Source: Hyphomonas sp.
GTDB lineage: Bacteria; Pseudomonadota; Alphaproteobacteria; Caulobacterales; Hyphomonadaceae
DNA length: 64,000 bases
Direction of reading: 5' to 3'
NCBI GenBank assembly: GCA_002700305.1
Contig: PACZ01000009.1
Coordinates: 1 to 64,000 of the forward strand
Shown here: piece by piece, positions 40,000 through 42,580 of the stretch
How positions within the stretch are numbered: the first letter of the stretch is position 1
How the letters are laid out: the number at the start of each line of letters is the position of its first letter
Notes under the pieces: generated by a model
Databases searched by the model: none
What the model was told of the DNA's origin: nothing
Seen by the model: the letters and a program-made list of their open reading frames with translations, nothing else
Position numbers and translations under genes: made by a program

Positions 40000-41109
40000 C
40001 TAGTTCTCAGACGCCGCCTTCAGCGCGGCCGCCCTTGCCTGTTCGGTGGCGCGGTCCTCTTCCGTGAGCGGGATCAGCCCCTTGTCCAGCAGGTACCCAT
40101 CGGGGCCCATGGCGCCGTCCGACACGAACTCTTCGACGAACTCGGCAATGCCGGGCACGAAGCCGAGATTTTCCCGCTTCACATAGATGTACAGCATGCG
40201 CGACAGGCCATAGTCGCCATCCTTGATGTGCACGAAATCCGGTGGGACGCCGGAGAGCAGGCCGGCCTTCACCCTGTCTGAATTCTGCTCAAGGAAGGAA
40301 AAACCGAGAATACCGATCGCAGCCGGTGTCTTGGTCAGGGCCTGCACAACGGCGGCGTCATTCTCCCCGAAATCGATCCAGGCGCCATCCGTGCGGATTG
40401 TGTGCGCGCGCTGCAGGAAGGCCGTCTCGTCGAGGTCGCTGAGCGCGCTCATCTGCGGGTCGTCCAGCGCGCCATGCTCCATGCCGAGTTCGACAAAGGC
40501 GTCCCGTGTGCCTGAGGTCGGCGGCGGGCCGAAGACCAGGATCGGCTCGTCCGGCAGGGACGGGCTGACTTCGCTCCAGGACTTGTAAGGATTGGGCACG
40601 AAGCCGCCCTGCCCGTCCGGCAGATCCTTGGCGAGGGCGCGATAGAGCTCCGCCTTGGTGATATCGAAATCCGGCCCGGCCTTCGAATTGGCGATGACGA
40701 TCCCGTCATAGCCGACGCGGAACTCCGCCGGGTCATTCACGCCATTGGCCGCACACAGAGCCCGCTCGGTCTGCTTGATAGGGCGTGAGGCGTCGGAAAT
40801 GGAGGGCTCTGACGGCCCGGCGCCAAGGCAGAACGCCTTGAAGCCGCCGCCCGTCCCGGTCGTCTCCACGACAGGCGTTGGCCATTTGGTAACCGCGCCG
40901 AACTGTTCGGCAACGGTCGTGGCGAACGGCGAGACCGTGGAGGAGCCGACAATCTTGATCTTCTCGGCATCCACGCCGGTGATCGAGGGTATGACGATCC
41001 GGTCGCCGACCTCCAGCTCCGACAGGTCCGTTCGTCCGCATGCGGCAGCCAGCAGCAAGAGTGCTGCAGCAAGGACAGGCCGGACGGCCGGGAGGCACCT
41101 ACGCGTCAT
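40000..41109 (-). CDS. PstS-like substrate-binding lipoprotein
   Basis: The frame is open from 41187, but a lipoprotein signal begins at 41109 (MTRRCLPAVRP... lipobox AAAC), so I start there. The 369-residue protein has the phosphate-binding-protein blocks KIVGSSTVSPFATTVAEQF, TGTGGGFKAFCLG, and FGPPPTSGTRDAFVELG. In PstS these contact phosphate through the SST and SGT segments. No PstCAB transporter genes are adjacent, so it may feed a distant transporter or act as a sensor. It diverges from the ornithine decarboxylase leader. Confidence 0.88.
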   Translation of the reverse strand: MTRRCLPAVRPVLAAALLLLAAACGRTDLSELEVGDRIVIPSITGVDAEKIKIVGSSTVSPFATTVAEQFGAVTKWPTPVVETTGTGGGFKAFCLGAGPSEPSISDASRPIKQTERALCAANGVNDPAEFRVGYDGIVIANSKAGPDFDITKAELYRALAKDLPDGQGGFVPNPYKSWSEVSPSLPDEPILVFGPPPTSGTRDAFVELGMEHGALDDPQMSALSDLDETAFLQRAHTIRTDGAWIDFGENDAAVVQALTKTPAAIGILGFSFLEQNSDRVKAGLLSGVPPDFVHIKDGDYGLSRMLYIYVKRENLGFVPGIAEFVEEFVSDGAMGPDGYLLDKGLIPLTEEDRATEQARAAALKAASEN

Positions 41110-41216
41110 GCTCTTCTCTTTCCCAAGGGTGTCCGCATGTATCCGGAATTCTGTATGACTCCAAACATCGTACGCCTTCTTCAACAACTGCTACAGGCCC
41201 CGTCAAAGAAGGTTTC

Positions 41217-41267
41217 ATGAAAAATCTCAGCCAGGGGCAAAATTTTTCCTTGCGCCCCCGGAAATAG
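41217..41267 (+). CDS. putative 16-residue leader peptide (upstream ORF of ornithine decarboxylase)
   Basis: A 17-codon frame starts at ATG 41217 and ends with TAG at 41265-41267, encoding MKNLSQGQNFSLRPRK. An AGAAGG ribosome site lies five bases before the ATG. Its last codons contain a C-run (41255-41259) that can pair with an upstream GGGG (41234-41237) or with the G-run at 41330-41334 in the leader that follows. It is too short to prove by sequence alone, but start signal and position suit a regulatory leader peptide. Confidence 0.45.
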   Translation: MKNLSQGQNFSLRPRK

Positions 41268-41386
41268 TCCACTAAATGCCCCTTCGAAATAAAGAGATGT
41301 GGCGGACACTCTGCGCTAACCCACTCGGTGGGGGCCCCCGTACTAACGCCCAAAGCTGGTTAAAAGCCCTTTGGAGGTTAGGTGTC
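41268..41386 (+). promoter_or_regulatory. structured 5' leader of ornithine decarboxylase, candidate speF-type RNA
   Basis: Alternating complementary segments occur: CTAACC (41316-41321), CTAAC (41343-41347), GGTTA (41358-41362) and GGTTAG (41376-41381). The last overlaps the GGAGG ribosome site (41373-41377), so pairing with either CTAAC copy would hide it, while GGTTA at 41358 competes. A CCCAC-TCG-GTGGG hairpin (41320-41332) and a GGGGGCCCCC palindrome (41330-41339) add further alternatives. The speF RNA motif is known upstream of ornithine decarboxylase genes in alphaproteobacteria; whether this is that motif needs a covariance search. Confidence 0.5.
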
Positions 41387-42580
41387 ATGCACTCCTATGC
41401 TACCCCAATTCATATCGTTCGTGAGTCCCAGCCGGACATTCCCGTCTGGTGTTTCCGTCCGGAGCGCGTCACCGCGTCGGCGAAATGGTTTCGCGAGTCC
41501 TTCTCGGCCGAGCCGTTCTATGCCGTGAAGGCAAACCCCGGCGTGCACGTGCTCGACGCCCTCTGGGCCGGCGGCGTGCGCAGCTTCGATTGCGCCTCCG
41601 ATACGGAAGTCGAGCTGATCCGTACACGTTTCCCGACAGCGCGCATCGCGTTCCTGCACCCGGTGAAGAACCGCCGTGCGATCGCCCGCGCCTACAAGGA
41701 ATTCGGCGTGCGCATCTTCGTCACCGATACGATGGCGGAACTGAACAAGATCCTTGAGGAAACCGGCTATGCCGACGACCTGACGATCATTGTCCGTGTC
41801 GCCGTGTCCTGCGACGGCGCCGCCCTGCCACTGGCCGGAAAATTCGGCGCAAGCGCTGAAGACGCCGCGGAAATCCTGCGCGAAGCCCGCCGCTATGCAG
41901 ACGAGCTGGGCGTGTCGTTCCACGTTGGCAGCCAGGCTCTGAAGCCAACGGCCTGGGCAACCGCCATGGCCGACGTGTCGCGGATCATCATCACCGCAGG
42001 TGTCACGGTCGATATCGTCGATGTCGGCGGCGGCTTTCCGTCCGTATACGCTGACAACGCCCCGCCGGCGCTGGAATCCTATGTCGCCATGATCGAAGCC
42101 TCGTTCGAGGAAATGTTCGTTCTCGAAAACGCAGACCTGTGGTGCGAGCCGGGCCGTGCGCTGGTCGCCGAATCGGAAAGCCTGCTGTGCCGGATCGAAC
42201 TGTCGAAAGACGGCGCGCTCTATATCAATGACGGCTCCTATGGCGCCCTCTATGATGCCGTGCACGAGCGCTGGCAGTTCCCGAAACGCGCCATCGCCGG
42301 TGACGGCCGCAAACTGCACGGCATGAAGCCTTACCGCGTCTATGGCCCGACCTGCGATTCGACCGACAAGTTCCCGGACGAGATCATGCTGCCGGCCGGT
42401 CTGACCGAAGGCGACTATATCGAGTTCGGCAACCTCGGCGCCTATGGCCGTGCCATGTCCAGCCGCTTCAACGGCTTCGGCGAAACCGAAGTGGTGGAAG
42501 TACAGGACGCACCGTGGCCGAGCCTTTACGGGTCGGTCGGTGCCGAAGTCGTGTCCATCGGGTCCAGAGCCACGCTCTGA
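41387..42580 (+). CDS. fold-type III ornithine/lysine-type decarboxylase
   Basis: The ATG at 41387 lies nine bases after GGAGG and matches the family N-terminus; an upstream in-frame ATG at 41276 lies inside the leader. The 397-residue enzyme is an alanine-racemase-fold decarboxylase: PLP Lys48 in FYAVKANP, the HVGSQ strand, VDVGGGFP (phosphate cup), CEPGRALVAES, and catalytic Cys323 in GPTCDSTD. It makes putrescine from ornithine, the first step of polyamine synthesis, in the cytosol. Its last 55 bases overlap the end of murI on the other strand. Confidence 0.92.
   Translation: MHSYATPIHIVRESQPDIPVWCFRPERVTASAKWFRESFSAEPFYAVKANPGVHVLDALWAGGVRSFDCASDTEVELIRTRFPTARIAFLHPVKNRRAIARAYKEFGVRIFVTDTMAELNKILEETGYADDLTIIVRVAVSCDGAALPLAGKFGASAEDAAEILREARRYADELGVSFHVGSQALKPTAWATAMADVSRIIITAGVTVDIVDVGGGFPSVYADNAPPALESYVAMIEASFEEMFVLENADLWCEPGRALVAESESLLCRIELSKDGALYINDGSYGALYDAVHERWQFPKRAIAGDGRKLHGMKPYRVYGPTCDSTDKFPDEIMLPAGLTEGDYIEFGNLGAYGRAMSSRFNGFGETEVVEVQDAPWPSLYGSVGAEVVSIGSRATL

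Follow-up and report, generated by a model that had tools for sequence, protein, structure and literature searches.

A conserved, probably structured leader RNA with two closely spaced start codons precedes a predicted ornithine decarboxylase gene in Hyphomonas

We analyzed a 64,000-nt stretch of Hyphomonas sp. DNA (the window; contig PACZ01000009.1, positions 1 to 64,000) and found that its putative ornithine decarboxylase (ODC) gene is preceded by a conserved leader RNA (positions 41298 to 41389, plus strand). Two start codons lie at its 3' end: the ODC ATG at 41387 (start 2) and, two bases upstream of it and in another frame, a GTG at 41382 to 41384 (start 1). The preliminary description of this DNA, which had read the region as a translated-leader or riboswitch control of polyamine synthesis, missed the GTG. 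The conserved element ahead of ODC is genuine. It is probably structured and, to judge from its sequence, likely controls ODC translation. We consider it somewhat more probable than the contrary that this cis-acting leader sets the frequency of ODC translation starts through the two competing start codons; we infer that there is a switch, as well as its ligand and the direction in which control acts. Thus, of the earlier reading, leader control by a conserved and probably structured RNA stands, while a 16-codon upstream ORF, the pairings favored then and an assignment to the speF motif do not.

The ODC gene (41387 to 42580, plus strand) encodes a PLP-dependent decarboxylase according to Pfam (PF02784, E 3e-41; PF00278, E 6.8e-10). 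The nearest solved relatives of the protein are lysine/ornithine and ornithine decarboxylases, NCBIfam gave matches below the cutoff only, with lysA as the best, and from homology we infer ornithine as the substrate. The ODC gene is flanked by a minus-strand PstS-like gene and by a glutamate racemase gene that is convergent with it.

Conservation was computed on 37 Hyphomonas sequences, which stem from the window genome, 35 of 36 genomes of the same genus and genome G250; the duplicates L064-L067 were not counted, and G001 (84% complete), with a weak ODC match only, is outside the set. The leader occurs in 10 distinct versions in these 37 genomes, and it is single copy in the window genome according to a DNA-level search. 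Between 41297 and 41386, ten-base blocks have average conservation values of 0.88 to 1.0, with the exception of block 41317 to 41326, a hairpin loop (0.73). The 5' flank (41167 to 41296) averages 0.46 to 0.80, with peaks at promoter-like boxes, and the coding blocks 3' of the leader average 0.70 to 0.96. Such near-total conservation of the primary sequence would also fit a binding site, and a protein or small RNA could bind the leader, or the leader could merely stabilize the mRNA. Both variants leave the constant spacing of the two starts, described below, unexplained, and we consider them quite unlikely. An N-terminal extension of ODC from an ATG at 41297 was considered and rejected: the ATG is missing in 4/37 sequences, and in 13/14 sequences of the third clade the frame is shifted and stopped.

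Upstream of the leader, CTTGC (41249 to 41253) and TA (41273 to 41274) are invariant in Hyphomonas. They are part of a likely promoter (41249 to 41278, plus strand) with a −35-like box TTGCGC (41250 to 41255), a 17-base spacer and a −10-like box TAAATG (41273 to 41278). A scan with the strict sigma-70 consensus found no promoter. Transcription would start near 41283, which would leave out of the mRNA the 16-codon ORF that had been proposed as a leader peptide. This ORF, with its AGAAGG site, is present in the sequence (ATG 41217 to TAG 41267, plus strand), and control by an arrest peptide encoded in it could be envisaged. However, it overlaps the conserved promoter-like boxes, including the −35-like one, and is therefore probably outside the transcript. 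Furthermore, in an alignment across relatives neither its frame nor its length was conserved. In the nearest clade, a homologous start (ATG or GTG) is present in 9/10 sequences, with frames of 14, 16, 16, 25, 25, 25, 33, 48 and 48 codons; in the other 27 Hyphomonas sequences the start is absent, and a regular expression matched two unrelated sites only (L017 and L019). We judge the ORF not functional and give control by an arrest peptide almost no credence. In E. coli, ornithine stalls the ribosome on the SpeFL upstream ORF (uORF) of speF, according to the part of the report considered (PMC7815308). There, as presumed here, ODC is under leader control, but unlike that arrest peptide, neither the peptide of the 41217 ORF nor that of the uORF beginning at start 1 is conserved in Hyphomonas.

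The segments on which a switch had been proposed are all present: CTAACC at 41316 to 41321, CTAAC at 41343 to 41347, GGTTA at 41358 to 41362 and GGTTAG at 41376 to 41381, as are the ribosome-binding site GGAGG (Shine-Dalgarno sequence, SD; 41373 to 41377, plus strand), which is invariant in Hyphomonas, and the ODC start at 41387. According to structure prediction, the SD is sequestered in a hairpin CUAAC-CCAAAG-GGUU / AGCC-CUUUGG-GUUAG (41343 to 41381, plus strand) of −14.0 kcal/mol (z −3.09; matched by 1/200 shuffles), whose ends were picked after the fold had been seen. Folded alone, this segment forms an identical hairpin in 10/10 versions, and the hairpin is part of the whole-leader minimum-energy fold in 4/4 versions tried. 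Among the 10 versions, one A-U is changed to G-U with the pair kept, and no pair is broken; the bases varying after GGTT form the loop of the GGUU/AGCC hairpin. In the ensemble of 41283 to 41410, the pair probabilities of the hairpin are 0.93 to 1.0 (innermost pair, 0.55); G41373, G41374 and G41377 of the SD are paired, and A41375 and G41376 are open. The stability of that whole stretch (128 nt) was not above that of shuffles (z 0.39; 126/200).

Two further elements belong to the predicted folds. In the minimum-energy fold, GACAC (41305 to 41309, plus strand) pairs with GUGUC (41382 to 41386) and covers start 1; its first 4 pairs are intact in 10/10 rows of the alignment, but invariant. A hairpin with a CCC/GGG stem, here CCCAC/GTGGG (41320 to 41332, plus strand), keeps its stem in 10/10 rows; 5 to 9 loop bases separate CCC from GGG, and the changes in loop length among Hyphomonas versions are not multiples of three. 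A perfect 10-base palindrome, GGGGGCCCCC, which cannot close on itself, is present at 41330 to 41339 in 10/10 versions.

The first CTAACC (41316 to 41321, plus strand) is a possible alternative partner of GGTTAG. This pairing, which was thought to cover part of the ribosome site, loses one of six pairs in 4/10 distinct rows, and the pairing of CTAAC at 41317 with GGTTA at 41358 loses one of five pairs in 8/10 rows; neither loss is compensated. The suggestion that the ribosome site is covered by pairing is supported, but the partner in the predicted fold is the second CTAAC, in the CTAAC/GTTAG hairpin, and this predicted burial of the SD is better supported than the pairings proposed before. 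The sequence varies very little among Hyphomonas genomes, and no covariation was found there for any CTAAC/GGTTA pairing or other helix. A two-state switch is possible. The nested part of an alternative fold has −16.0 kcal/mol, not including the gain from pairing GGCG (41301 to 41304, plus strand, within the core GGCGGAC) with CGCC (41347 to 41350) as helix H1, and the hairpin state has −18.1 kcal/mol (−27.4 with the CCCAC hairpin). The GGCG/CGCC pairing is possible and invariant, and it has probability 0 in the nested ensemble. Complementarity between the CTAAC region and the sequence after the SD was dropped as proof: cross-type shuffles were as good in 0/1000 cases, but against within-type shuffles it was not special (68, 810 and 418 of 1000), and Hyphomonas shows no variation there.

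The two starts have a layout of an SD, four bases, an NTG codon, two bases and a second NTG (SD-N4-NTG-N2-NTG), here SD-N4-GTG-N2-ATG. It was found in 104/145 Caulobacterales ODC genes examined: in 37/37 from Hyphomonas, 6/6 from genera of family f1 other than g179, 24/24 from f2, 19/19 from f4, 16/16 from f5 and 2/24 from f3. The 41 genes without it are 17/17 from g179, 22/24 from f3 and 2/2 divergent f4 genes. The ODC genes were taken from part of the 178 genomes with a match, and the second ODC copy of G034 is outside the sample. The distance from the SD to start 1 is other than four bases in 6/104 genes with the layout. As a control, an NTG at −5 was present in 18/278 SD-preceded ATG ORFs of the examined contigs, some Hyphomonas ODCs still being included. 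Outside the order, a class-wide sample (27 of 52 genomes with an ODC match) had the layout in 5/27 ODC genes, two of which are the 2/2 ODC genes of f17, from another order. The layout in L170 is probably due to chance, and by eye it was absent from L171, L173 and L174. In L166 (f102, another family; 1.2-Mb genome) the ODC start reads SD-ATG-AG-ATG, and the uORF begins with MRW as in f5.

All layout-bearing genes of Hyphomonas, f1, f2 and f4 have GTG as start 1. This would fit a direct action of polyamines, which raise UUG- and GUG-dependent initiator tRNA binding in E. coli, as stated in the section of the report considered (PMC4405209): at high polyamine levels, the weak GTG or TTG start 1 would be favored and less ODC made, with no aptamer involved. 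However, start 1 is ATG in 16/16 f5 genes, start 2 is also weak in f2 and f4, and a conserved RNA is left unexplained, so that we regard direct polyamine action as unlikely. The uORF beginning at start 1 has 48, 29 or 12 codons in Hyphomonas (48 in the window), 11 or 13 in f5, 23 to 31 in f2, 17 to 31 in f4 and 2 in L081 and L083. The spacing of the starts is conserved, whereas the peptide varies in both length and sequence; we therefore do not regard the peptide as the signal, and going by the sequences, it can hardly be the conserved function. In L081 and L083 the TGA of the two-codon uORF overlaps the ODC ATG (ATGA), an arrangement that would permit termination-reinitiation. At about ODC codons 6 to 12, CCCCTGGACCTGGTCCG is identical in 24/24 f2 and 19/19 f4 genes; the ODC frame translates it as PLDLVR and the uORF frame as PWTWS, a possible double constraint.

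Core strings of the Hyphomonas leader recur in other Caulobacterales. GGCGGA is present within 260 bases upstream of ODC in 37/37 genes of Hyphomonas, 6/6 of other f1 genera (g179 not included), 24/24 of f2, 19/19 of f4, 23/24 of f3 and 0/16 of f5. In f2, f3 and f1 (without g179), the leaders combine GGCGGA with CTAACGCC, and in most of them a UGGGUU-like box comes next; in f4, GGCGGA and the UGGGUU box are kept, and GATGCCGG replaces CTAACGCC. The leader is also present in Caulobacter, a well-studied genus. Short blocks kept across families, around an arm that ranges from none to over 100 nt, would suit a metabolite-binding riboswitch in which ornithine, a polyamine or a related molecule binds an aptamer made up of GGCGGA, CTAACGCC and (C)UGG(G)UU, and so would the occurrence of the leader at one biosynthetic gene. 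Binding would then move the SD between an open and a closed state, and the two starts would be secondary. With CTAACGCC present in 0/19 f4 leaders and with little covariation, such a riboswitch is a possible but doubtful reading. In the f3 leaders L094 (178 to 357), L040, L100 and L102, the core unit occurs twice in tandem (GGCGGACCUGGAAACAGCGUCCACUAACG.., then GGCGGACCUGACA..UGUCCGACUAACGCC).

Searching the named genomes with the pattern GGCGGACN{19,49}CTAACGCCN{2,5}CTGGKTW, itself derived from ODC leaders, gave at least 119 loci, and in 115 of the 119 listed an ODC gene starts within 250 bases. Of the remaining matches, three are no more than 170 bases away from where the locus ends, and one (L294) has no ODC following. 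A covariance model, R1, was built from 16 f2 and 4 f3 leaders (alignment A2); one of its 20 rows, L095, is faulty in that it matches no locus, mixes two f3 leaders and differs in the variable loop. R1 had one match each in 50/120 genomes of the order, and by coordinate comparison all 50 are at the start of an ODC gene. Under the stricter filters of the whole-genome search, it had no match in the window genome or the other listed Hyphomonas genomes. The top R1 match of the window is full length and lies at 41296 to 41389, with 11.7 bits and a weak E value of 0.25 over 119 kb. As R1 misses the Hyphomonas genomes, the tie of their leader to the others rests on the core strings and on its place. 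Over the class, R1 matched 4/385 genomes, three within the order and one not ahead of ODC; at L152, the match outside the order, no ODC was seen by eye among the listed ORFs.

The genus g179 (L301-L317) shares its family with Hyphomonas, but none of its 17 ODC genes has the layout, an R1 match, or GGCGGA or CTAACG within 300 upstream bases. With g179 wholly negative, the element is not universal in the family. The g179 ODCs are 42 to 46% identical to the window ODC and may be a separate lineage. In f5 (L105-L112, L119 and L042), ODC has a different conserved leader of the kind CGCCAAUCCCAUGGGACCUCUCCGCAAGAUUGGCG, in which CAUGGGACCUC can pair with GAGGUUCCAUG over the SD and first start (L108 and L110 folded); with ATG-N2-ATG starts and 13-codon uORFs, it looks odc1-like.

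In the literature (mostly open papers), speF and odc1 were the only alphaproteobacterial ODC leaders among the matches listed. The odc1 (uORF-25-1) motif has 272 alphaproteobacterial examples (Brewer et al. 2021; PMC8632094). According to the sections of that paper considered, the right side of a stem contains the SD, the 5' end forms a pseudoknot with the loop, and two UUG starts are two bases apart, the first opening an 11-residue uORF of constant length. Both starts were used in a lacZ reporter, and three changes near the pseudoknot cost expression from the main start. Measured against this description, the Hyphomonas leader likewise precedes ODC (by Pfam) in alphaproteobacteria, is predicted to form an extended stem whose right side contains the SD, and places a second start exactly two bases ahead of the main one (37/37). 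The candidate counterpart of the odc1 pseudoknot would be the GGCG/CGCC pairing described above. It differs in its starts (GTG and ATG), in its uORF of 48, 29 or 12 codons and in its core GGCGGAC...CTAACGCC, and it is set apart from odc1 by description. We propose that it is a sequence-distinct, probably peptide-independent variant of the odc1 kind; by analogy it would work like odc1, without being counted as a member. The f17 leaders L154 and L157 fit odc1 (TTG-AA-TTG, an 11-codon uORF and a long stem over the SD and start 1), and these two odc1-like leaders had no meaningful match in Rfam 15.

In the two-start model, the predicted hairpin and closing helix would bury the SD and the GTG, while the ODC ATG would sit at the edge of the helix. 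Should this fold open, or give way to a rearranged one such as the GGCG/CGCC plus CTAACC/GGTTAG alternative, a ribosome could enter and use either the GTG, making an out-of-frame, throw-away peptide, or the ATG, making ODC; the GTG/ATG ratio would then set polyamine synthesis. We favor this model on account of the conservation of the leader relative to the upstream flank, the loop indels that are not multiples of three, the kept SD hairpin, the distribution of the layout compared with the control, the two-codon uORFs, the core ahead of ODC in nearly all listed pattern loci and the use of both odc1 starts in the published reporter (PMC8632094, in the part considered). Against it we count the lack of covariation in Hyphomonas, the unremarkable energy of the whole leader, the absence of layout and core in g179 and of the layout in most f3 and the divergent f4 genes, the E value of R1 in the window and the complementarity that fails against within-type shuffles.

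More broadly, and only tentatively, at somewhat less than an even chance, we suggest that an uncatalogued class of leader RNA in several Caulobacterales families selects between two ODC starts, the peptide being irrelevant. If so, start-codon selection would, together with odc1, be a common control of polyamine synthesis in alphaproteobacteria, and the leader class would possibly sense a ligand of the polyamine pathway. The same layout occurs with other starts, two-codon uORFs and other leaders, the spacing and buried SD being kept and the peptide not; this contrast makes start selection directly testable.

The leader has no match in Rfam 15 by covariance-model search. Below-threshold Rfam matches to c4-a1b1 near 40690, to alpha_tmRNA in L047 and, mostly to microRNA models, in L154 were taken as chance. 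The spermidine riboswitch is a variant of SAM-I that acts as a transcription-termination switch, according to the portion of the report considered (PMC10853860); it shares with the leader the control of polyamine genes by RNA but differs in its SAM-I architecture, to which no Rfam match of the leader corresponds. The speF motif, which likewise precedes a COG0019 ODC gene in alphaproteobacteria (Corbino et al. 2005; PMC1273637, part of the paper), had been suggested for this position. Its model, RF00518, has a consensus different from the Hyphomonas leader and gave no match in the genome, in a search whose controls were positive in 0/14, or up to E 10 in 41270 to 41400. In a class-wide search, the model passed its cutoff in 4/190 genomes. 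In the sections considered, the descriptions of the speF and odc1 leaders give no signal (PMC1273637, PMC8632094). RF00518 was found in 6/190 class genomes, next to ODC homologues that are 31 to 36% identical to the window ODC. At 6/6 of the speF loci L057-L062, the speF leader has a member of the ar45 sRNA family as its neighbor, with every match exceeding the gathering score.
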